Shown one piece after another: positions 20,133-32,576 of a stretch of 61,136 nt of DNA. Below the pieces are notes generated by a model, which was given only the letters and a program-made list of their open reading frames with translations, was not told the DNA's origin and searched no databases. The translations under genes and the position numbers were made by a program. Position 1 is the first letter of the stretch. Each line of letters begins with the position of its first letter. The stretch comes from Verrucomicrobium sp. BvORR034 (GTDB lineage Bacteria > Verrucomicrobiota > Verrucomicrobiia > Verrucomicrobiales > Verrucomicrobiaceae): positions 1 through 61,136 of the forward strand of contig NZ_BATQ01000044.1 in the NCBI RefSeq assembly GCF_000739635.1, read 5' to 3'.

Positions 20133-23100
20133 ATGAAACGGAACTGGTCTGCCCGCTTGCTCTTGATCTTTGGCCCGGTGTTTTGGTCTGCCGTCATGGC
20201 CTCCGCTGCGGAGCCCGTGCCGCTGCGTTCCGAAAAAGCCCGGCCCTTTTTTGACGGCCAATCCCTCGAAGGTTGGGAGGCGCTGGCCCCCGTTCGATGG
20301 GCGGTGAAGGACGGTTCTCTCACGGGAGGTGACGGTGTCAGTAAGGTGCCCTACAACGAATTTCTGGCGACGAAGCAATCCTACGGCAACTTCGTCCTGC
20401 ATCTGAAAATCAAACTCACGGGCGATCCCAAGACGGGATTCATCAACTCCGGGGTGCAAATCCGCACTCGCCGCAATCCTGATGGCCACGAGGTTTGTGG
20501 CTACCAGTGCGACTATGGTGAGCCGGAGTGGTACGGCGGCATCTATGACGAGGGGCGCCGCAACCGGTTGCTGGTCAAGGCGGACATGGGCACGATGCGG
20601 TCGGCGGTGAAGTTGTGGGATTGGAATGACTACGTCATCAAGGCCGACGGGCCCCGGATCCAGACGTGGATCAACGGTGTGCAGGGCGTGGACTACGTCG
20701 AGCAGGATCCGGATATCGCCGGGGAGGGGATCATCGCCATTCAACTCCACAGCGGTGGCAACGCCGTGGTGCAGGCGAAGGAGGTCTTTATCGAGGAGCT
20801 TCCTGCCTCTCCCAATGTCATCACCTGGGAAAAGCTCGGCGGTGTACCGGGACAGCGGGCCAAGTTGAAGCCTGTCGCGCCGAAACCCCAGCCGCCGCCA
20901 TCCTCGGGTGCGGCAGTGAATGCGCTGTTGGCTCCAGGAACCAAGGTCATTCCGGTGGTGGCTTCGGACGGCCGGGCTCTCAACTTGGGATTCGAGACGG
21001 GCACCTTGCAAGACTGGACCCCGGTCGGTTCGGCCTGGGAGGGGCAGCCCGTGAAAGGCGATGCCGTGAAGCTCAGGGGTCGCGGGGAGAGCAACCATGC
21101 TGGCCAGTACTGGATGGGCGGTTATGAGAAGGTTGGCGACAAAGGCATAGGGACACTCACTTCTGCCTCCTTCAAGGTCACTCAGCCGTGGGCCAGCTTC
21201 CTGATCGGTGCGGGACGCGCGGTCAATAAGGTGCGGGTGGACGTGGTAGAGACGGCGACCGGCAAGATCTTCCACCAAGCCAGCGGACAGGCGTTGGAGA
21301 ATATGCGCCGGGAGGTGCTCGACCTCCGTCGTCTGGCAGGACAGGAGATCTTCATCCGGCTCGTGGATGAGGGAACGGAAGGTTGGTGTCACTTGAACTT
21401 CGATGACTTTGTCTTTCACGACAAAGAACCTGTCGTGATTCAACCTCCGACCCAAAAGGGAGGCCAGGGTGGGCTTGCGGCACGGCAGAAGGAAAGCCCA
21501 GTGCTGCGGCATCTGGTTCCCAATCCCAAGACCTCAGACGAGGCGTATGGCTCCGCCAGCGCAAAGACACTGGTGGCAGGCATGATGGTGACGCCAGGGT
21601 TTAAGGTGGATCTGGTCGCTTCAGAGCCGGAAGTGCGTCAGCCCATTGCTTTTGCCTGGGATGAGCGGGGCAGGCTCTGGGTGGTGGAGGCCTACAGTTA
21701 CCCCGCCCGGCAACCGGAGGGACAGGGAAAAGACCGCATTGTCATCCTGGAGGATGAGGCCGGGAAGGGGAGTTTTAGGAAACGCACGGTGTTTGTGGAG
21801 GGGCTGAATCTCGTGAGTGGTCTGGAGGTGAGTCCAGACGGGATCTGGGTGGGGGCGGCCCCGGAGTTGATTTTCATTCCGCGGGATGCAGCGGACCGTC
21901 CGGGAAAACCTCAAGTGTTGCTGGATGGTTGGGGCTATCAGGACACGCATGAGACGCTCAACAGCTTCACCTGGGGGCCGGACGGCTGGCTCTATGGCAA
22001 TCAGGGGGTGTTTACCCGTTCTCTGGTTGGGAAGCCCGGCACGCCTGAAGCTCAGCGTATGGAGCTTCGGGCCGGAGTCTGGCGCTTTCATCCGCAGAGA
22101 CACGAGTTCGAGGTATTCGCCCATGGTGGCAGCAACCAATGGGGACTGGATTTCAATGAGAACGGCCACCTCTTCATGACGCACTGCCGCAGCTTCTGGG
22201 GTGGGGGCGGCACCACGCATGTCATCCGCAACGGACATTTCTGGAACCAGGCGAACTCCGGGTATGCGTCATTCATCTCCAATGCCGGACTCGACATCGC
22301 TCCGGATCTGAAGAACTACCTGCCGGCTTCCGCAAAGTATGACAGCGGGGAAGGAGGAGCGGGCAAGCCGGGCAGCACGGCCATCTACGGCGGACACAGC
22401 CATGTGGGCACGATGATCTATCTGGGGGACAACTGGCCGGACAGCTATCGCAATCATCTTTTCACCCACAATCTGCACGGCCACCAGATGAATCATCAGG
22501 TGAACGAGCGGGAGGGTTCGGGGTATGAAACCCGACACGGCGGGTTCGACATGGTCTTCGCTCCCGATCCCACCTACATGGGCGTGGACCTGCAGACGGG
22601 TCCTGATGGGGCGGTGTACATGATTGACTGGAGTGACACCCAGGAGTGCCACAATCCCGCCGAGGAAAAGTGGGATCGGAGCAATGGGCGGATGTACCGC
22701 ATGGCTTGGGAAAAGACCTACCAACCGGTGAAGGTCGATCTGGGGAACGAGACAGACTTGGAGCTTGCCAAAAGACACTTGCATAAGAACGACTGGTACT
22801 CGCGCACGGCGAGGGGATTGCTCCAATCCCGGGCTGTGAAGCGCCCAATTCAGCCAGAGGCCCTGAACGCCCTGCGTGCCCAGGTGGCGTCGCCTTCCGT
22901 GCCGCAGGTACTGCGGGCAGTCTGGACGCTGCACGTCATCGGTGCACTCGGCGACGAACTTCTTCAAACCCTGACCCGGCATCCCAGCGATGTGGTCAGA
23001 GCTTGGGCGGTGCAGTTGGCAACGGAGTCAGCCGGTGCCCCTCGGTTGAGTGAGGAGCAACTGTTGAAGCTGGCGCAAGGAGATGCTTCCGCCACCGTGC

Positions 23101-24419
23101 GGTTGGCCATCGCTTCAGCCTTGCCGAAGTTGGGCGCTGCCCAGATCTGGAGTTTGGGGCAGGCTCTCGCGGCGCATGGAGAGGACCAGCAGGATCGGTT
23201 TCTGCCGAAGATGATCTGGTTCGGACTGGCATCGGTAGTTGGGCAGGATTGGGAGCGGGCGCTTTCCCTGGCTGCGACAACGCCGCTGACCAGCCTGGCT
23301 GACTCAATTCGGTGGTCGGCGGCGCGATCGCCATCTGGTCGCGAGGCACTGGTTGCGTGGATGCAGGCACAGCCTGATGAGGTTGTCTCAAAGAACCTCC
23401 GTATCCTTGCCTTTGCGCTGAAAGATGAAGCATCGGTGACGATGCCCAAGGGATGGCCCGACTTGCAAAAGAAAGGGGTGCCCGCAAGCGGGGCCACGGA
23501 TCAACTGTCCGCACTCTTCGGTGACAAGACCGTTCTCGCCAAGATGAGGGACATCCTGGCAGATGCCACGCAATCGCCGCCGCAGCGCAAGATGGCGTTC
23601 GACGTGTTGAAGCGTAGCAACGATCCCCTGGCGACGCCCATCTTCGCGGGCTTGTTGGATGCGGAGACTTTTCGCTCCCTGGCCATCCCGCTGCTTTCTC
23701 GTTCCGCGGATCCTACTGTATCCCGGGCCTTGCTGGATCGCTTCGAAAAATTCGATGCCGTTGACCGCAGCGCGGCGCTTGGCGTGCTGACGAGCCGGGT
23801 GCAACTGGCGGTGCCCCTGCTTCAGGCGGTCAAGGCGGGTCAGTTCAAGCGCGAGTATCTCACTGCCTTGCAAGTACGTCAGATGCGCAACCTGCGGGAT
23901 GCCTCGGTGGACCAGTTGCTCGATCAATCCTGGGGCAAGGTGAATGAGTCCTCAGAGGCGGCAAAATCGTCCATGGAGCGCTTGAAGAAGGCCTATGCCG
24001 CCGCGCCTCTCTGGGCCTACAACGCCGGGGCGGGCAAGGAGACCTACACCCAGTTGTGTGCTGTGTGTCACGCGTTCAATGGGGCAGGTGGCAAACTGGG
24101 GCCAGATCTCGGCGGTTCCTGGCGCAACGGGGTGGATTATTTCCTGGAGAACATCGTGGACCCCAATGCTGTGGTGGGAGAGAACTTCCAGTTGCATCTG
24201 GTTACCAAGAAAGACGGCGCGGTCATTTCAGGCGTCGTGGAGCAGGAGTCGGCTTCGGCCCTGACGTTGCGGACTGTGACGGAAGCTGTCGTGGTGGCGA
24301 AGCAGGACATCGCCAAGCACGACAAGATGGCGCAGTCCCTGATGCCGCCAGGGTTGCTGGAGGCGCTGCCCGAGCGCAAGGCGATTGAGTTGTTGAAGTT
24401 TCTGACGAGCAAGCCGTAG
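20133..24419 (+). CDS. Secreted DUF1080 / PVC dehydrogenase / HEAT / cytochrome c fusion
   Basis: 1428 residues. After a signal peptide (about 1-26) come: a DUF1080 (3-keto-disaccharide hydrolase-like, concanavalin fold) domain at about 35-225 (RPFFDGQSLEGWEAL, SGVQIRTRR); a jelly-roll-like module at about 285-430; a beta-propeller of the PVC 'membrane-bound dehydrogenase' family at about 465-870 (FAWDERGRLWVVEAYSYP, GPDGAVYMIDWSD); HEAT-like helices to about 1270; and a C-type haem domain with CAVCH at 1309-1313 and a C-terminal PGLLEALPERK tail. It probably oxidises or cleaves sugars at the cell surface and passes electrons to the haem. The first, DUF1080, domain is the usual neighbour of TIM barrels like the one at 17886. 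Confidence 0.92.
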   Translation: MKRNWSARLLLIFGPVFWSAVMASAAEPVPLRSEKARPFFDGQSLEGWEALAPVRWAVKDGSLTGGDGVSKVPYNEFLATKQSYGNFVLHLKIKLTGDPKTGFINSGVQIRTRRNPDGHEVCGYQCDYGEPEWYGGIYDEGRRNRLLVKADMGTMRSAVKLWDWNDYVIKADGPRIQTWINGVQGVDYVEQDPDIAGEGIIAIQLHSGGNAVVQAKEVFIEELPASPNVITWEKLGGVPGQRAKLKPVAPKPQPPPSSGAAVNALLAPGTKVIPVVASDGRALNLGFETGTLQDWTPVGSAWEGQPVKGDAVKLRGRGESNHAGQYWMGGYEKVGDKGIGTLTSASFKVTQPWASFLIGAGRAVNKVRVDVVETATGKIFHQASGQALENMRREVLDLRRLAGQEIFIRLVDEGTEGWCHLNFDDFVFHDKEPVVIQPPTQKGGQGGLAARQKESPVLRHLVPNPKTSDEAYGSASAKTLVAGMMVTPGFKVDLVASEPEVRQPIAFAWDERGRLWVVEAYSYPARQPEGQGKDRIVILEDEAGKGSFRKRTVFVEGLNLVSGLEVSPDGIWVGAAPELIFIPRDAADRPGKPQVLLDGWGYQDTHETLNSFTWGPDGWLYGNQGVFTRSLVGKPGTPEAQRMELRAGVWRFHPQRHEFEVFAHGGSNQWGLDFNENGHLFMTHCRSFWGGGGTTHVIRNGHFWNQANSGYASFISNAGLDIAPDLKNYLPASAKYDSGEGGAGKPGSTAIYGGHSHVGTMIYLGDNWPDSYRNHLFTHNLHGHQMNHQVNEREGSGYETRHGGFDMVFAPDPTYMGVDLQTGPDGAVYMIDWSDTQECHNPAEEKWDRSNGRMYRMAWEKTYQPVKVDLGNETDLELAKRHLHKNDWYSRTARGLLQSRAVKRPIQPEALNALRAQVASPSVPQVLRAVWTLHVIGALGDELLQTLTRHPSDVVRAWAVQLATESAGAPRLSEEQLLKLAQGDASATVRLAIASALPKLGAAQIWSLGQALAAHGEDQQDRFLPKMIWFGLASVVGQDWERALSLAATTPLTSLADSIRWSAARSPSGREALVAWMQAQPDEVVSKNLRILAFALKDEASVTMPKGWPDLQKKGVPASGATDQLSALFGDKTVLAKMRDILADATQSPPQRKMAFDVLKRSNDPLATPIFAGLLDAETFRSLAIPLLSRSADPTVSRALLDRFEKFDAVDRSAALGVLTSRVQLAVPLLQAVKAGQFKREYLTALQVRQMRNLRDASVDQLLDQSWGKVNESSEAAKSSMERLKKAYAAAPLWAYNAGAGKETYTQLCAVCHAFNGAGGKLGPDLGGSWRNGVDYFLENIVDPNAVVGENFQLHLVTKKDGAVISGVVEQESASALTLRTVTEAVVVAKQDIAKHDKMAQSLMPPGLLEALPERKAIELLKFLTSKP

Positions 24420-24460: not shown

Positions 24461-24670
24461 GGCGTCGGCCTTGCGGTGAGGAGGGGGCGTTGGGTGAGTG
24501 GTCGTGCTGAGCGGGGGACGCATGGCATGCGTGGAAATAAGTGCCTCCTTACGTCGTCAGCTACGGTCGGTGTTGGGAGTGTCTGGGCAGAAGGGGCATC
24601 AAGGAGCCTATGCGTCCGTAGGCAAGCTGACGAGGGCTGAGGCCGGGGCGGACACCCTCTGGTGATTGGT
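24461..24670. repeat. Long imperfect direct repeat, copy 1
   Basis: About 165 bp closely match 25096-25263 (nearly 90% by eye) with weaker similarity for another 40 bp. Shared landmarks are GTTGGGTGAGTGGTCGTGCT, GTGGAAATAAGTGCCTCCT and GTGTCTGGGCAGAAGGGG. Reading leftward, both copies stay open and encode RRHLFPR.PCVPRSARPLTQ; several differences are synonymous in that frame. No known insertion sequence is recognised. Confidence 0.85.
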
Positions 24671-25095: not shown

Positions 25096-25308
25096 GGCGT
25101 TGCCTCGCGGTGAGGGAGGGAGCGTTGGGTGAGTGGTCGTGCTGAGCGAGGGACGCATGGCACACGTGGAAATAAGTGCCTCCTCACGTCGTCAACTACG
25201 GCCGGTGTTTGGAGTGTCTGGGCAGAAGGGGGATCAAGGAGCCAATGAGGGCGTAGGCAAGCTGAAAGGGGGCTGGCAAGCTGGGCGGATGCCTACTAGC
25301 GATTGATC
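25096..25308. repeat. Long imperfect direct repeat, copy 2
   Basis: Partner of 24461-24670, same orientation, 635 bp downstream. It ends next to the stop codon of the CapA-fusion gene. Indels relative to copy 1 are few and short. Confidence 0.85.
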
Positions 25309-25325: not shown

Positions 25326-27950
25326 TCACTCTTTATCCACAAACGTCGCCGTCCCATCATCCGCAATCTGAACGGACCGCAACTTCGCCCGGATCATCCG
25401 CAACGTCTCGGCATCCCACGTCACTTCCAACAGGGCCCCGCGACTCCACTCACGCGTGGGGCCGGGGCCATCGAACACCAGATTGCCCAGTGACCATGCC
25501 ACGCTTCCGCCCCACAGATGCTCCAAAGGCTGAACCACATGTGGGCCTGTGCCGACAATCAGATGCGCCCCTGCATCCAGCCAGGTTACTGTGAGGGCTC
25601 GCTGCTCAGCGGTGGGTGTTTGAGTGTGTTCCCGACCCCAGTGGGGCATCATGACAATCAGGTCCGCCTTGGTGCGTGCTGCCGCGACGGCTCTTACGAT
25701 GGCGTCGGAAGCGGCTGTCGTGGCGATCATCGGTCCTTCAGTGCGCAGAGGCGCGGCCTCATCATCATACACGGAGAAGAGAGCCATCTTCCGTCCTTGG
25801 GCTTCCAGGATGAGCGGTTGCAGGGAGGCTTCGCTCGATGCTCCCGCGCCGCAGTGCTTCAGCCCGGTTTCATCCAGAAGGGAAACTGTTGTCTGGAGCC
25901 CAGCTGCGCCGCGGTCCATGGAGTGATTGTTGGCCAGGGTCACAGCATCCACGCCAAGCTCCTTGAGCAACCTGGCAGCATGGGCAGGCGCAGAGAGCGG
26001 GGCTTTGGCATCAGAAGTGGCGCCCTGGGGCAGCAAGGCGCACTCAAGATTCACCACGGCGAGGTCGGCAGCGCTCAGCGTGGCGTTCAGGGAGGCCAGG
26101 GGATTGTTTCCTAGATGAAGGGGGGCTGCCACTCTGCGGCCCATCATCACGTCTCCTCCGAAGACGGTCGTGAGGGTCTTTTGGGGACGGCGCAACTGCA
26201 GGATCTTCGGAACAGGGCGTCCCTGCTTCAATTCGCCCAGCGAAACCACGGCGGCGATGCCTTCCAGTTGATGGACCACCAGGTCGGCGTCGGTGAGCTC
26301 GCCAAGCGGCGGGAGATCCTGCCACAGAGCCGCGGCATGGGCGCCGAAGTCAATCACGCAGCCCTTGTCAGCCTCCAAGAAGCCCTGCCAGGGTTCAAGG
26401 AATTGCCGAAGGTCTCTCGGACTGCCCCAGGGCAGACGCCAGCCTTGAGCGCGAAAGCCTGCGATCAGGAAGTTGGCGCAGTCTGCTCCCCAGCCAGTCT
26501 CGGGCCCTGAGAGCTGGCCATCTTGTATCCAGGTGGAGCCAAAGATGTAAGGCAGGGCGAACTGCTCGCTCCAGGCCGCTCGGAGGCCGGTGGTGCCGGC
26601 CGCTTTCACGCGCAAAGTCAGAAGGTTGCTGAATCGCGATTCTCCATCGCGGATGACCTCCGCGTAGATGGGAAGGGTGCCGCAGTGATGGTGCGGATCC
26701 AGGAAGGGCCTCAAGGCGGCGACATCCAACGCTCCCATGACCGAGCCCTCAGCGATCAATCTGGGCTGTTGCTGAATCCAGCGAGGGGCCTTGCTGGCAA
26801 AACCAAAGTCCACCTCGGTGACGCGGTACACGGATTTCTCTGCCTGCAGTGCCCACCAGCGCACCCGCGCACCGGTGGGGACCGGGTTCATGGTGACAAC
26901 CGCTGGTTTGCCTGCCTCAAGCCGGTAGCTGCCGTCCGGCTCGCGGGGCCGGTCGTTCATGGAAATGTCAGGCAGAAACGAGTCAGCCCTCCAATCGCTC
27001 AGCATCCCTTCCATCCGTGACCGGTCGTACTCGGTGTGATTGGTTTGCCACCGTTGCAGAGCCTTCGTGCGGAGCGCCAGTGAGGCCTTGCTGACGTCGA
27101 AGGAAGGGATCTGCTCTCCCTTTCGCTCACGGAGTCTCGCCATCATCGAGCGATCCGGACCAGTAATGGCGAAAGGCTCCCATCGCACATCGGCATTGGA
27201 GATGCGCCAGCTTTCGTCCAGAGCTGCATGCAGCAGCTTGTCCGCCTGCTCGGGTGATTTGAGCCAGGGGGTGGAGAGAGCCCAGCAGAGTGCCTTGAGG
27301 CCGCGTTTGTCGAGAACGGATGCCAAGACCTCGTGAACCTCAGGCACGAGCTTGTCATCTGGAAGGGCGGCGAAGTAATCCAGGTCGATGCTGGCGACGA
27401 AGGAGCGTTCGGCGGACCATGCGGCGGATTCCGTCTTCCATTGCTCGAAGTCCAGGGCCCGGAACTTGGGGGCCAGCGGGCCGGCATCGCGAGGCAGACC
27501 TTCTTCATGGGCATCCAGATATTCGCGGGCATCTTGTTCCAGCCTCGCGCATTCCTCCGTGGGCAGCCTGCGTGCCGAAACCCAGATCACCTCCGCAATC
27601 GGGGCGGGCATCAGCGGCTCGATCCAGTTGAAGCACTGGATGGCACCCTGCTCCCGCCAGCGTTGCAGCCGGGCGGCTCTGTCTTCCACAGAAGGCACCT
27701 TGCGAATGGCCTCACGGATCCGGTCGGACTTGGCGATGGCCGAGGCATCGCTGTGGGCATCGAACAGCACCAGGGTGTGCGGTTCATTCAACGGAAGCGT
27801 CTGGGCGAGGAAATAGAAGCTGCCTGCATGGGATTCCTCGATCCAGACAGGGAGGGGCGGGGCTGCGGAATGGAGGAATGTGAATGCGCTCCAGAACAGA
27901 CAGATCGCGAGCGACTTTCTGCGCACGGGGAGTGGAACGGGGCGGCTCAC
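25326..27950 (-). CDS. Secreted UPF0489 / NlpC-like amidase / CapA fusion
   Basis: 874 residues from GTG 27950, overlapping the upstream gene's stop by 4 bp. After a signal peptide (about 1-30) come: (1) a UPF0489-like domain with metal-ligand-like DAHSD (64-68) and SIDLDYF (187-193), which resemble arginase-family ligands; (2) a central module with GWGADCANF (Cys491) and DLVVH (His560), like NlpC/P60 or DUF1287 cysteine amidases; (3) a CapA/PgsA metallophosphoesterase-type domain from about 592 (FGGDVMMGR, NLECALL, LANNHSMDRG, MPHWGREH, GTGPHVVQP). The three-part architecture is new to me. It may cut or modify a poly-amino-acid or peptidoglycan-linked polymer outside the membrane (inference). 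Confidence 0.85.
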   Translation of the reverse strand: MSRPVPLPVRRKSLAICLFWSAFTFLHSAAPPLPVWIEESHAGSFYFLAQTLPLNEPHTLVLFDAHSDASAIAKSDRIREAIRKVPSVEDRAARLQRWREQGAIQCFNWIEPLMPAPIAEVIWVSARRLPTEECARLEQDAREYLDAHEEGLPRDAGPLAPKFRALDFEQWKTESAAWSAERSFVASIDLDYFAALPDDKLVPEVHEVLASVLDKRGLKALCWALSTPWLKSPEQADKLLHAALDESWRISNADVRWEPFAITGPDRSMMARLRERKGEQIPSFDVSKASLALRTKALQRWQTNHTEYDRSRMEGMLSDWRADSFLPDISMNDRPREPDGSYRLEAGKPAVVTMNPVPTGARVRWWALQAEKSVYRVTEVDFGFASKAPRWIQQQPRLIAEGSVMGALDVAALRPFLDPHHHCGTLPIYAEVIRDGESRFSNLLTLRVKAAGTTGLRAAWSEQFALPYIFGSTWIQDGQLSGPETGWGADCANFLIAGFRAQGWRLPWGSPRDLRQFLEPWQGFLEADKGCVIDFGAHAAALWQDLPPLGELTDADLVVHQLEGIAAVVSLGELKQGRPVPKILQLRRPQKTLTTVFGGDVMMGRRVAAPLHLGNNPLASLNATLSAADLAVVNLECALLPQGATSDAKAPLSAPAHAARLLKELGVDAVTLANNHSMDRGAAGLQTTVSLLDETGLKHCGAGASSEASLQPLILEAQGRKMALFSVYDDEAAPLRTEGPMIATTAASDAIVRAVAAARTKADLIVMMPHWGREHTQTPTAEQRALTVTWLDAGAHLIVGTGPHVVQPLEHLWGGSVAWSLGNLVFDGPGPTREWSRGALLEVTWDAETLRMIRAKLRSVQIADDGTATFVDKE

Positions 27951-29314
27951 CTTACAGGCGGAAGCTTGGGTTCTTTAGAGAGGGGTGTGACCAGCACCAG
28001 ATAGGCAAGACAGGTGTCATCGAACTTGGTTCCCTTATAGACCTCCGCAATGGTCAGCGTGATCGTCTTGACGTCCCGATGGGGTTCTGGCAGGTCAAAG
28101 TAGTAAGTTTCCAGGGTCAGACGCTCGTCAGGCACTGTGACGGTGAATGGTTTCCCATCATTCACGCGCACCTCAAGCCTTTTCACCCGGTTGTTGGCAT
28201 CATACTTTTCCTGGTCTTCAGCATAGCCATTCACGATGCCGATCCGTGAAACATGGGATGGCTTGGTGAGGGTCAGCGTTAGTGTTTCTCCGATGCCAGC
28301 GCCGGGTACACCTTCAGCCCAACTGGTGTGCCGCCCAGGCATGATGAGGTTTTCAGCGAAATAGTTGAGTGTCCCTTCTGAAGCCAGAGTGGATGAGGCT
28401 TTGACCGAATAGTGGTTGGAGTGCAGTTCCCAACGATCCCGCCCGTCAGGCTGGCCTTTGTCCCACCGCACATAGTGCAGCTGTGAGCGGGGATCGGACT
28501 CTGGCAAACCCTCCATGGAAGGGGAATGGTAGGCGGGGGCTGCGACGATGGTCAGGTCGTCTTCCAGAGTGGGCTCAAGATCGGTAAACGACCAAGTCCA
28601 CTTGTTGTCTTCACGCTTGAATCTCGCGGGATGGCTGAGTTGCACCTTGTCAGGACTAACCGAGATGGCCCGAATGATGACGGTGCCGTGTCTGATGGTG
28701 CCGCTCCATGCTGCCGCGCTGGAGAAAATATAGCCTAGTGTCGGGGCGCTTCGAGCGGACCCAACTCCGCCGCTGATCACGCTCACTGCATAAGGCTGGC
28801 GATATTGAATGCTGAGCCGTCGTGTCTGTCCCTTCTTGAATGCCAATTGCGACATGTGCCAGCCTTTGATGCAGGGGCCCAATGCTCTGCGGGCCTTGAG
28901 ATCGTCGGCACTGATCTGAAGGTCATCAGGGACGATGGAGGTTTTGACCGGTTCATCATCAGCCTGGAGTTGAAAGCCCTCCAAACTCATGAGCGACGTC
29001 GATGAGACGTTAGGGATAGGTCCGAACGGGCCCATTTTCACAATCGACGGAAAGCCAGCTTGGACAGCCACTTTAGGGCCTGGATTGTGGAGGACATACT
29101 CAATCCGGATCTCGGCATATTCGATGTGGAGATCTATCTCGAGTCTTTCGGAGACCATCTCTACTTGGTCAATGCCGATCGGCTTGAACGCACCAGTGGT
29201 GTGCACTCCTGTCGAATATCCACCGATGTTGCCGAGTGCTGTCATGGAGACGGTGGTGCAAAGGAGCACCAGCACCATCATCCATGGTTTGCAGAGGGGT
29301 CTTGATATCGACAT
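27947..29314 (-). CDS. Secreted protein with DUF4424-like N-terminus and discoidin-like C-terminus
   Basis: 455 residues. A signal peptide (about 1-28, TALGN) is followed by a DUF4424-like beta region (IDLHIEYAEIRIEYVLHNPG) and a C-terminal F5/8 discoidin-like domain of the type seen in NAD-glycohydrolase translocation domains (SSTLASEG, SWAEGVPGAGIGETL, RIGIVNGYAEDQEKYDANN, VYKGTKFDDTCLAYLVLV). Such domains bind glycans. It is a paralogue of the gene 22 bp upstream, and its stop overlaps the CapA-fusion start, so all three are probably one translationally coupled operon. The paralogue keeps GNGGGY, here GNIGGY. Confidence 0.82.
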   Translation of the reverse strand: MSISRPLCKPWMMVLVLLCTTVSMTALGNIGGYSTGVHTTGAFKPIGIDQVEMVSERLEIDLHIEYAEIRIEYVLHNPGPKVAVQAGFPSIVKMGPFGPIPNVSSTSLMSLEGFQLQADDEPVKTSIVPDDLQISADDLKARRALGPCIKGWHMSQLAFKKGQTRRLSIQYRQPYAVSVISGGVGSARSAPTLGYIFSSAAAWSGTIRHGTVIIRAISVSPDKVQLSHPARFKREDNKWTWSFTDLEPTLEDDLTIVAAPAYHSPSMEGLPESDPRSQLHYVRWDKGQPDGRDRWELHSNHYSVKASSTLASEGTLNYFAENLIMPGRHTSWAEGVPGAGIGETLTLTLTKPSHVSRIGIVNGYAEDQEKYDANNRVKRLEVRVNDGKPFTVTVPDERLTLETYYFDLPEPHRDVKTITLTIAEVYKGTKFDDTCLAYLVLVTPLSKEPKLPPVR

Positions 29315-29336
29315 GACTTCTTGGACTGATGGCTGC

Positions 29337-30746
29337 TCATCGCGACGCCCGGATCTTCGGCTCTTTCTCCAGCGGCGACACCAGCACCACTTCCGAGAGG
29401 GCCGTGTCGCTGTACTTCGTCCCCTTGTACACGGCGGCGATGGTGAGCTTCACGGAAACTACGGGCTCGGTGGGGGCTGGCAGATCAATGTAGAAGAGCT
29501 CGGAGGTGAGACGCTCGTCAGGGACTTCCACAGAAAAGCTCTTTCCGCCGTTGAGGCTTACGTCCAGCCGGGCCACGCGATTGTTCTTGAGGTAGATGTC
29601 CTCCGACTTGGTGTAGCCATTGGCGATCCCGATGCGGCTGAGCTTGGCGGGTTGCGCCAGGGTGAGTGTCACGGATTCACCGATCCCGTCCCCTTTGGCT
29701 CCTTCAACCCAGGCGGTGCTCCCGCTGTCGGAGTCGTCTTCCGCAAGAAGCTGTGGGTCATAGCGGAGCCCGCTTCCGGGGGCGAGCGTGGAGGAGGCGG
29801 TGGCCTTGTAGTCGTAGCGATGCAGTTCCCACTTGCCGCCCATCTTGCCCTCGTAGTTCTTGACCGCACCCCATCCCACATACTCGGTGCGGCTGTAGTC
29901 TTCGACCTCGCCGTTGGCGTTCTGGTTGTAAACCGTCTGCCCGAAGCATGAGGGCCGCGTGGTGATGACGAGATCGTCTTCCAGAGTGGGCTCGAAGTCC
30001 GTGAAGAGCCAGCGCCAGGTGTTGCCGTCCTTTTCGAATCGCTTCGGATGGCTGAAGTGGACCAGGTCAGGATTGGCTGTCACGGCCTTCACGGTCACGC
30101 TGCCTTGTTTGATGGGGCCATTCCAGGCTCCAGCGCTGGAGAAAAGATAGGTCAATGTGAGAGGGCTGATCCGGCTGTCTTCTGACACGTACACATAGCT
30201 GCCGAAGTACGGATTGCGGTACTTCACCGTGACCTTGCGGGTCTGGCCTTGGGCGAAGTCCAGTTTGAAGATGTGCCAGGCTTTGATCTTGATGCCGCCA
30301 TCCTCGCCGTCGGAAGGAAGGGATTCCACCGAGTCGAGCTTCAGGTCGTCGGACTTGATGGTGGTCTTCACCGTCTTGCCGTCGGCTTTCAATTCAAACT
30401 CCTCGAGCGGCAGCTTGGTCGCGAGCTGCTTCATCGTCATGGGTTCCGCATCGACCTCGCCATAGGGATCCACCGCGACGGCTGAGGGAAACCCTGCCTC
30501 CACCGTGACTTTGGGACCCGGATTGTGCAGCACGTACTCGATGCGAATCTCTGCGTGCTCGATGTGGAGATCGATGTCGAGCTTCTCCGACAGCATCTGG
30601 ACCTGCTCGATGTTCAGCGGCTTGAAAGCCCCGCTGGAAGCCAGTCCTTTGACGTAGCCGCCCCCATTGCCGAGGACAGGAGCCGCAAATTGCAGGGCCA
30701 CAAGACCCGCGCCCAGTACCAGACGAAGCCACTTACGCGTGTGCAT
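29337..30746 (-). CDS. Secreted protein, paralogue with discoidin-like C-terminus
   Basis: 469 residues, first gene of the operon. It has a signal peptide (about 1-26, APVLGN), a DUF4424-like region (IDLHIEHAEIRIEYVLHNPG), a central beta region (YLFSSAGAWNGPIKQG), and the same glycan-binding-type C-terminal domain (SSTLAPGSG, AWVEGAKGDGIGE, RIGIANGYTKSEDIYLKNN). It aligns end to end with the following gene, so one arose by tandem duplication. The pair may recognise two forms of one glycan and present it to the CapA-fusion enzyme (inference). No promoter is clear in the 60 bp before it. Confidence 0.83.
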   Translation of the reverse strand: MHTRKWLRLVLGAGLVALQFAAPVLGNGGGYVKGLASSGAFKPLNIEQVQMLSEKLDIDLHIEHAEIRIEYVLHNPGPKVTVEAGFPSAVAVDPYGEVDAEPMTMKQLATKLPLEEFELKADGKTVKTTIKSDDLKLDSVESLPSDGEDGGIKIKAWHIFKLDFAQGQTRKVTVKYRNPYFGSYVYVSEDSRISPLTLTYLFSSAGAWNGPIKQGSVTVKAVTANPDLVHFSHPKRFEKDGNTWRWLFTDFEPTLEDDLVITTRPSCFGQTVYNQNANGEVEDYSRTEYVGWGAVKNYEGKMGGKWELHRYDYKATASSTLAPGSGLRYDPQLLAEDDSDSGSTAWVEGAKGDGIGESVTLTLAQPAKLSRIGIANGYTKSEDIYLKNNRVARLDVSLNGGKSFSVEVPDERLTSELFYIDLPAPTEPVVSVKLTIAAVYKGTKYSDTALSEVVLVSPLEKEPKIRASR

Positions 30747-30806: not shown

Positions 30807-32576
30807 TCAGACTGCCGGAGCAGGGGTGGCGACCGTGGTAGGGATGGCACCCGCCTCCTTGGCCTCAGCGGTGGCGTTCTTCACCTCGAACTCGCGGCAC
30901 CAGCCTTTGATCTCCAGATCGTTGAAGATCTTGCCGATCACACGACGCAGGAGGCCCTTGAGGTTGGCGTTGTCCACGGCCTGAAGGCTGCGCACGGCCT
31001 GCTCCTTGTAGCTCTCGAGCAGCAGCATCGCCTTTTCATGAGCGGTGCTGGATTCAGCCCAGGCGCGGATCGTCGCCTTGTCGGGAGATTCCTTGAGCTC
31101 GCCGTTCCAGAGCTTTTCCATGGTGTCTTTGATCTCCCCTTTGCCGCGCTCGCGGATGAGGGCCAGCACGATGCTGGGGCGGATGGCCACGGTGTTGTCC
31201 GTGGCGGAATCGTCGCCCAGGTCGTCGAGGTCGTCGTGAATCTGGTAGGCGATGCCGAGGGCCTCGCTGTACTCGTGAAGGGCTTCTTCCACCTCATCCA
31301 GGCGGCCGCTGAGGGCGGCGCCGATCTTAAGGGCCACTTCAAAGGCGGGAGCGGTCTTGCTGCGGAAAATTTCCAGCACCTGGGTGCTGCTCAGCGCCAC
31401 GGGATGATTGTTCCAGAGGAGTTCGGCACCCTGGCCACGGCAGAGTTCGCGCTGGCCTACAGCTGCAATCTTGAGCATCTCCGTGCGGAAGTCCGCACGC
31501 ACGTTGGAGTCGGCGAGCAGGCGGTAGCCTTCGCCGATGAGGAGGTCACCCACGTTCAGGGCCACCGGCATCCCGTGCTCGGCATGCAGGGTGGCTTCAC
31601 CGTAGCGCTGGGCATCGTTGTCCTCGATATCATCGTGGACGAGAGAGGCTTTGTGGAAGCATTCCACGGCAATGGCTGCTTTCTTGAGGTCATCACTGAG
31701 GGTGCCTTCCGGATCCTCACGAAGCGCCTGGTAGGAGGCGACGGTGAGGAAGGGGCGCCAGCGGTTGCCGGCGCGGGCCAGCCACTCGCGGGCGATTTCC
31801 TCGGTCCGATCATGGGGCTTCCCGAGGAGGGCATCGAGGTTCTCGCGGGTGAACCACTCGCGCACATCCTCGTGCAGCTTGTTGAGGTTCAGGCGGCGGG
31901 TCTTGTCCTCGCTGGTGAGGTGGATGTAGTCCCACACCCAGTCGATGTCCACGGTGGTGTCGATGCAGTCGTCCTGGAGCAGGGGTACCGCCACGGCTGG
32001 GATGGCGGCGGCTTCCACGTAGGGGAAGGTGCGCTCCAGCACGGGAAGGCAGGAGATGCCCACGATGGCCTCGATCTTGCCGGTCTGGATGAGGCTCATG
32101 ACGATGGCGGAACCTTCTGCCACCAGAACGGCATAGCCGAGTTTCTCTGCCTCGTTCTGAAAGTCCTGGATGGTGCAGAGGCCGCACTGCTTGCAGAGCA
32201 GGCCGAATTCATCAAACGGGGCTGGGCACTTACTCTCCACCCGCAGGCACTTGGGCATGAGGAGCAGCCGTTTCTCGTAGGGGATGGTGGCTAGCGTTTC
32301 ACGCCAGAGCTCATTGCTCAGGAGCACTCCGATGTAGTCGCGGTAAATCGGGTTGAAGTTGTTGTCCGCCACGATCTTCTCCGCGTGGTGGCGCATCTCA
32401 TCCAAGGGAGCTGGCGGGACCAGCTTGGCGGTCTCGAGATACTTGCGGATGGTGCCCAGGATGTGATCCCGCTCGACCTTCGTCTGCGGGATGTTCTTCT
32501 TTGGCTGGCGAAAGCGCCGCACCGTGATGGGTACTGCGGGCGGGAGCTGGGCGGAGCGGACGGCGACCGTGGACAT
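30807..32576 (-). CDS. DUF116 - polyprenyl diphosphate synthase fusion
   Basis: 589 residues. The N-terminal 240 residues are DUF116-like, with Cys110, Cys117, Cys128, Cys131 and Cys134 (CKQCGLC) suggesting an Fe-S or zinc site and a following GYAVLVAEGSAIV segment. From about 255 it is a trans-isoprenyl synthase: GNRWRPFL, first Asp-rich motif HDDIED (314-319) and second IHDDLDDLGDD (DDLDD 448-452). It should make a polyprenyl diphosphate for quinones or carotenoids from farnesyl or geranylgeranyl diphosphate. Fusion to DUF116, a domain seen with lipid or metal enzymes, hints at a coupled redox or carrier step. No linked genes clarify it. Confidence 0.88.
   Translation of the reverse strand: MSTVAVRSAQLPPAVPITVRRFRQPKKNIPQTKVERDHILGTIRKYLETAKLVPPAPLDEMRHHAEKIVADNNFNPIYRDYIGVLLSNELWRETLATIPYEKRLLLMPKCLRVESKCPAPFDEFGLLCKQCGLCTIQDFQNEAEKLGYAVLVAEGSAIVMSLIQTGKIEAIVGISCLPVLERTFPYVEAAAIPAVAVPLLQDDCIDTTVDIDWVWDYIHLTSEDKTRRLNLNKLHEDVREWFTRENLDALLGKPHDRTEEIAREWLARAGNRWRPFLTVASYQALREDPEGTLSDDLKKAAIAVECFHKASLVHDDIEDNDAQRYGEATLHAEHGMPVALNVGDLLIGEGYRLLADSNVRADFRTEMLKIAAVGQRELCRGQGAELLWNNHPVALSSTQVLEIFRSKTAPAFEVALKIGAALSGRLDEVEEALHEYSEALGIAYQIHDDLDDLGDDSATDNTVAIRPSIVLALIRERGKGEIKDTMEKLWNGELKESPDKATIRAWAESSTAHEKAMLLLESYKEQAVRSLQAVDNANLKGLLRRVIGKIFNDLEIKGWCREFEVKNATAEAKEAGAIPTTVATPAPAV

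Follow-up and report, generated by a model that had tools for sequence, protein, structure and literature searches.

A putative exported arginase-like enzyme and its arginine-ended partner proteins in Verrucomicrobium

A recurring gene set

We analyzed a stretch of 61,136 nucleotides from Verrucomicrobium sp. BvORR034 (contig NZ_BATQ01000044.1 of assembly GCF_000739635.1, positions 1 to 61,136, forward strand), which we call the window. On its minus strand lie three adjacent genes. Two of them encode paralogues that end in a discoidin-like domain, the partners dA and dB. The third encodes an enzyme of several domains, and its first domain resembles peptide arginases. The partners end in an arginine that is nearly invariant among their relatives, and we propose that the enzyme may act on this residue.

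29337..30746, minus strand: partner dA, a predicted exported DUF4424-like and NADase-type discoidin protein, 469 amino acids
27947..29314, minus strand: partner dB, tandem paralogue of dA, 455 amino acids
25326..27950, minus strand: multidomain enzyme, predicted exported, 874 amino acids, GTG start

The three open reading frames (ORFs) lie exactly where a first-pass annotation, made from the sequence letters, had put them, and so do the features that couple them. The spacer between dA and dB is 22 bp long (29315-29336), and the GTG start of the enzyme overlaps the stop of dB by 4 bp (GTGA, 27947-27950). Going by this spacing, the three genes are probably co-transcribed. All three proteins are probably exported, as suggested by signal-like N-terminal segments that we judged by eye. 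A pattern scan found no sigma-70-like promoter, and terminator-like sites were fewer than the mean of shuffled sequences.

The gene set, the enzyme with one or two partners, recurs in many genomes. A scan of the contigs of named genomes with the enzyme returned 14 loci: 11 in Verrucomicrobia (L002-L012) and one each in metagenome-assembled genomes (MAGs) of Spirochaetes (L013), Bacillota (L014) and Brocadiia (L015), the last matching the enzyme only in CapA. The enzyme is matched in 22 of 68 genomes of the window's family; in 15 of them the match covers the arginase and cysteine regions (the core), and in 7 it is confined to CapA. The partner profile matches 16 of the 68: the same 15 that carry the core and G031, which has a discoidin piece only. 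The pairing of enzyme core and partner is well supported. Its layout varies. The partner of G049 is broken into two frames. In G052 the genes lie on two contigs, but the start of the enzyme comes after the partner, at the end of a contig stretch. In G022 core and partner are apart: the 3.5 kb that precede the enzyme (L006) contain no partner, and no core lies beside the partner (L064).

In a phylum sample of 387 genomes, some of which are also in the family sample, 7 genomes carry the core, and exactly these 7 have full-length partners. The partner profile is matched only in part by 16 more genomes, of which 13 belong to a single genus. For Spirochaetes and Bacillota the samples were centered on genomes chosen for carrying the pair. 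Here, 3 of 256 Spirochaetes genomes have the full core, and the same 3 have full-length tailed partners (partner termini were read only in the returned loci); 1 of 259 Bacillota genomes has the core, and the same genome has the partner. The genome survey of the trio that the first-pass annotation had suggested thus finds the set recurring in Verrucomicrobia, in Spirochaetes genomes and in one Bacillota MAG. There is no sign of a wider conserved cluster: no other gene family occurs in more than 4 of 23 neighborhoods, whose flanks differ in length and which share some families within related groups.

The Spirochaetes sample also contains many looser relatives of the partners. The partner profile matches in 115 of the 256 genomes, among the matches listed mostly in the discoidin part and often with several copies per genome.

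Partner proteins and their terminal arginine

The C-termini of dA and dB had been read as glycan-binding-like, and their scores identify them as discoidin. PF25302 matches them with E-values of 5.3e-32 and 7.6e-33, and NF047619 (NADase-type discoidin) gives 125.8 and 122.9 bits, both above the curated cut-off of 38. In the N-terminal halves, DUF4424 (PF14415) scores 34.2 bits in dA, above the cut-off of 27, and 18.7 bits in dB, below it. The AlphaFold2 model of dA has a predicted local distance difference test score (pLDDT) of 79 and a predicted template modeling score (pTM) of 0.82. Its best Foldseek match is 4g2a (lpg2210, DUF4424), and its C-terminal domain matches 7ji1, the translocation domain of the Streptococcus pyogenes NADase, with 33% identity. 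The likeness to lpg2210 is in the beta-sandwich DUF4424 body. However, lpg2210 has a YARHG C-terminal domain, whereas the partners carry an NADase-type discoidin domain and an Arg tail. The likeness to the streptococcal protein is in the C-terminal domain, but the partners are without the NADase domain and have a tail after their discoidin.

In a tree of 39 partners, dA and dB fall into separate clades, supported by 100/100 and 90/82, and each clade holds one copy from G061, a genome of the sister genus. The tree bears out the first-pass reading of a tandem duplication. Because both clades contain a G061 copy, the duplication appears to predate the split of Verrucomicrobium from its sister genus. 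Other tandem pairs of partners (G042/G038, G310 and G316) look like separate duplications. Long branches make the placement of tailless rows in this tree unsure. Proteins of ~470-545 amino acids from one genus of the same order (L080-L091) have a related C-terminal discoidin domain and no tail.

The tails of the two partners in the window are as follows.

29340..29369, minus strand: last 10 residues of dA, a C-terminal tail beyond the final discoidin strand with Arg469 at its end
27950..27979, minus strand: last 10 residues of dB, a C-terminal tail with Arg455 at its end

In the dA model the last strand spans residues 450-459 and about 10 residues lie beyond it (mean pLDDT 66 over 461-469). 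Arginase-bearing genomes supply 36 full-length partners that are distinct over the last 200 residues, and 34 of these end in Arg. The frame-split copy of G049, which is outside the 36, also ends in Arg. When partners are clustered at 80% identity, 27 of the 29 clusters have the Arg end. Over the last 16 positions of these 27 clusters only the terminal Arg is invariant; Pro occurs at -7 in 25 of them, and positions -2 to -5 are variable. The terminal Arg is written by all six Arg codons, and the stops TGA, TAG and TAA all occur. As a background, Arg ends 22 of 141 neighboring mechanical ORFs, 8 of 26 enzyme frames and 7 of 51 discoidin-only proteins, the last count excluding the frame-split G049 copy and a fragment from G914.

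Genomes without the arginase domain provided four partner homologues (G783, G914, G866 and G836), and none of the four has the tail Arg. In G783 the partner-like protein ends directly after the discoidin domain. It lies beside a relative of the enzyme (open frame of 307 amino acids) that has the beta-rich and cysteine regions only. G914 has the same tailless partner and a shortened enzyme relative, at a contig edge. No arginase-bearing core was found in the G783 and G914 genomes. G866 and G836 encode partner-like proteins without an Arg tail, and no core match was found in either.

Two other sources of the tail were considered. We rejected the terminal Arg as an artefact of the 4-bp overlap, because Arg also ends partners that do not overlap the enzyme, including the separate copy in G022, and because six codons are used. 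CapA is an unlikely cause of the tail, since the CapA-less L013, L014 and G895 still have the terminal Arg.

Domains of the enzyme

The AlphaFold2 model of the enzyme, built with 14 sequences, has a pLDDT of 81 and a pTM of 0.58. Together with sequence comparisons it suggests the following domains.

27021..27857, minus strand: peptide-arginase-like (UPF0489) domain 1, ~residues 32-310; putative ligands H41, D64, H66, D68, D189, D191
26604..26969, minus strand: beta-rich linker domain, ~residues 328-449; strands in the model, tentatively Ig-like
26226..26588, minus strand: NlpC/P60-like cysteine domain, ~residues 455-575; C491, H538, H560
25329..26183, minus strand: CapA/PGA_cap domain with an MslH-like fold, ~residues 590-874

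Judged from the model and the sequence, domain 1 is related to peptide arginases but divergent. In VIA, where rows mostly span residues 589-874 and the middle domains of the enzyme are barely tested, residues 32-310 match OspR (8BRP) with a Z of 16.2 over 214 residues (4.1 Å, 15% identity). OspR is absent among the 50 best Foldseek rows listed for the enzyme. A search of PDB sequences with the core profile ranks OspR first (E 0.0061), and the alignment brings the DxHxD and DxDYF motifs together. Pfam UPF0489 is seen at E<=10 in 8 of 13 homologues, with 0.002 as the best value. To assess conservation, 58 enzyme frames were reduced to 26 by dropping same-gene copies, open-ended frames and those below 550 amino acids, and L160 and L161 were added. 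D64, H66, D68, D189 and D191 are present in all 28 homologues, the window included, and H41 in 27 of the 27 aligned (one of the 28 is without its N-terminus).

The metal ligands of OspR are His12, Asp39, His41, Asp43, Asp165 and Asp167 (PMC10028609). The UPF0489 enzymes OspR and BipC convert peptidyl Arg to ornithine (PMC10028609, PMC12707348), and BipC acts on the precursor of a ribosomally synthesized and post-translationally modified peptide, or RiPP (PMC12707348). Further peptide arginases are described in PMC12703449. The authors of the OspR study raise the hypothesis that C5orf22, a human member of the family, is a peptide arginase as well (PMC10028609).

Domain 1 shares with OspR (landornamide), BipC and FlmR/OhkR (UPF0489, PF12640) the arginase fold, the DxHxD and IDLDYF motifs and the six metal ligands. 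Like peptide arginases, the enzyme also has a protein partner of its own that offers a candidate Arg as the target. However, OspR, BipC and FlmR/OhkR are RiPP maturases that act on short precursor peptides, whereas the window enzyme is putatively exported, is fused to further domains and is paired with a folded protein of ~430-480 amino acids. Nor do the partners resemble a RiPP precursor, which is short and consists of leader and core; they have two domains and signal-like N-termini.

Alternatively, domain 1 could be an exported ureohydrolase that acts on guanidino compounds, either free or carried by polymers. The partner would then be a binding protein or scaffold, and its Arg would fill or regulate the active site. 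The same six ligands are present in conventional arginases (PMC10028609), and Pfam Arginase matches 4 of 13 members at E<=10, with 0.069 as the best value. We regard such a role as distinctly improbable: among solved structures the profile comes closest to a peptide arginase, and OspR is inactive on free arginine (PMC10028609). Its authors favor substrate recognition by protein contacts, and both observations suit an enzyme and a substrate that are encoded side by side.

The first-pass annotation had described the enzyme as a UPF0489, cysteine-amidase and CapA fusion. The cysteine module is weak by sequence. At E<=10, NLPC_P60 and Amidase_6 each pick out 3 of the 13 homologues, with best values of 0.0027 and 0.0058; the unrelated family Smoothelin also reaches 0.0027, in 2 of the 13. 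Yet C491, H538 and H560 are found in all 28 arginase-containing homologues and may form the usual Cys-His-His arrangement of NlpC/P60.

The CapA part of the fusion is clear (PF09587, E 1.2e-59, 202.3 bits against a curated cut-off of 27). This domain matches MslH, a lasso-peptide C-terminal epimerase of the CapA/PGA_cap family, with a Z of 31.8-32.0 over 265-267 residues (2.4-2.5 Å, 28% identity). MslH has eight key residues, comprising Ca ligands and catalytic dyads (PMC10406935). Seven of the eight match: D11, E44, N87, H88, D91, H259 and H295 correspond to D600, E636, N675, H676, D679, H770 and H804 of the enzyme. The eighth, the metal ligand His261, is Gly772 in the enzyme and Gly in 23 of 23 aligned sequences, which leaves the MslH residue set incomplete. 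The enzyme scores ~63 bits with the MslH model NF038314, whose curated cut-off is 700, and, unlike MslH, the CapA domain of the window is putatively exported and fused. Of the 28 enzymes, 23 have CapA, and L013, L014, G895 and G928 lack it. In G316 (L043) the CapA region is open except for an in-frame stop where it begins. The same locus carries a second partner copy that does not end in Arg.

A proposed reaction on the partner tail

We propose that, outside the cytoplasm, the enzyme converts the tail Arg of its partner to ornithine, and we give this proposal about an even chance of being right. The partner is the likeliest target because domain 1 resembles enzymes that act on peptidyl Arg and because the tail Arg is nearly invariant, yet missing in the four arginase-lacking homologues. 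Partners with an Arg tail and the enzyme would form a self-contained exported two-component system. Domain 1 would bind the tail and hydrolyze the guanidino group of the Arg at a binuclear metal site, yielding ornithine and urea. The NlpC/P60-like domain, and in Verrucomicrobia also the CapA/MslH-like domain, would act on the same tail or on a polymer held by the discoidin domain. What we infer here comprises the Arg as the substrate, the Arg-to-ornithine chemistry, the order of the steps and the biological role.

A fuller maturation pathway outside the cytosol is conceivable. The amine of the new ornithine could serve as the acceptor for the cysteine domain, attaching the partner to the wall or another polymer, and in Verrucomicrobia the MslH-like domain could epimerize the tail residue. 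Both the attachment through the new amine and the epimerization of the last residue are speculation, and we consider the pathway as a whole unlikely. Arginase-lacking pairs keep the cysteine domain beside a tailless partner, which speaks against a cysteine domain that needs ornithine.

Several further results weigh against the proposed Arg-to-ornithine reaction. Pfam UPF0489 scores 17.3 bits in the window enzyme (E 0.0066), below the curated cut-off of 27. OspR Glu11, which lies beside the His ligand, is proposed to hold the guanidine (PMC10028609); all 27 aligned rows have Ser, Asn or Arg at this position, and the EEH(N/H)EAF motif is absent. An acid stands one position earlier in 26 of the 27. 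In the CapA-less L014, L160 and L161, whose domains were assigned from the core profile and alignment, Pfam at E<=0.5 finds neither UPF0489 nor NlpC/P60; at the same threshold it does not find NlpC/P60 in the two shortened enzymes. Two partners break the pattern of the tail: copy 2 of G316 ends in SRK, its sister copy in Arg, and the partner of G928 has Arg followed by seven more residues. The partner sequences are related and hence are not independent. The arginase-lacking set numbers only four, three of them on long branches in the partner tree. Two of the four have no enzyme relative, and that of G914 is a contig-edge fragment. Pfam finds no DUF4424 in the partner-like proteins of G783 and G836. 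Finally, H538 of the cysteine domain is Gln in both shortened enzymes (L158 and L159, from G783 and G914), and the tail could track the cysteine domain instead, as this residue is lost there.

Since both the Glu11 motif and the Pfam cut-off failed, we did not adopt domain 1 as a plain member of UPF0489. The first-pass assignment is weak by score and is backed by fold and profile.

NADase-type discoidin and NlpC/P60 families are usually linked to glycan or cell-wall work. This background favors the processing of a surface polymer, which the first-pass annotation had considered. The discoidin proteins would dock the enzyme on glycan or peptidoglycan, the NlpC/P60-like and CapA domains would cut or remodel a polymer that bears peptides, and the Arg would be no more than a docking signal. 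The arginase-lacking pairs retain a cysteine domain adjoining a discoidin protein, and hence both can work without tail or arginase. However, six invariant metal ligands favor catalysis over mere docking, and a lone invariant terminal residue amid variable neighbors resembles a target. Polymer processing is possible but rather unlikely, as the evidence leans toward the partner protein itself as the target.

The annotation had also stated that it knew of no described system joining these parts, and in the open-licence literature we found no description of an arginase-like enzyme paired with a DUF4424-discoidin protein. In the same literature, peptide arginases appear only in RiPP or peptide-engineering work, and the characterized ones we came across in publications act on short precursors of natural products. 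If the proposed Arg-to-ornithine reaction is true, then peptide-arginase chemistry would extend beyond both the cytosol and RiPPs to a folded protein. An exported folded binding protein would be its target in Verrucomicrobia, in some Spirochaetes and perhaps in one lineage of Bacillota. Functions would be suggested both for DUF4424-discoidin proteins and for an unassigned branch near UPF0489. Enzyme and substrate would be encoded next to each other, and the target would be easy to assay: one terminal residue, a mass loss of 42 Da and the release of urea. The arginase-lacking homologues offer a built-in control.

Searches and genes around the operon

An anti-competitor role, in which the enzyme is a secreted effector with accessory binding proteins, had been suggested as well. 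A putatively exported enzyme with hydrolase-type folds would fit. Yet the enzyme is conserved along its whole length and not variable at one end, PADLOC gave no match for the three proteins (no search for immunity genes was made), and searches of viral contigs and plasmids, which did not extend to phage records, returned no relative of the core. The suggestion found no backing in these searches and is highly improbable.

A defense system was rejected on the same PADLOC result. We also rejected a mobile element, within the same searches of viral contigs and plasmids: of 59 pattern matches in viral contigs 0 were confirmed, and plasmids gave none.

Downstream of the operon a 151-nt repeat occurs in two copies (24480-24630 and 25115-25265) that are 91% identical. 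It has no Rfam match and its fold is not unusual. A diverged copy lies in L002 near 196-302 (78% over 108 nt). The gene upstream of the operon (30807-32576) encodes DUF116 fused to a polyprenyl synthetase; among the 23 neighborhoods, it adjoins the operon only in Verrucomicrobium and G061. Elsewhere in the window, 20133-24419 encodes a protein of 1428 amino acids with 3-keto-disaccharide hydrolase-like and DUF7133 domains.

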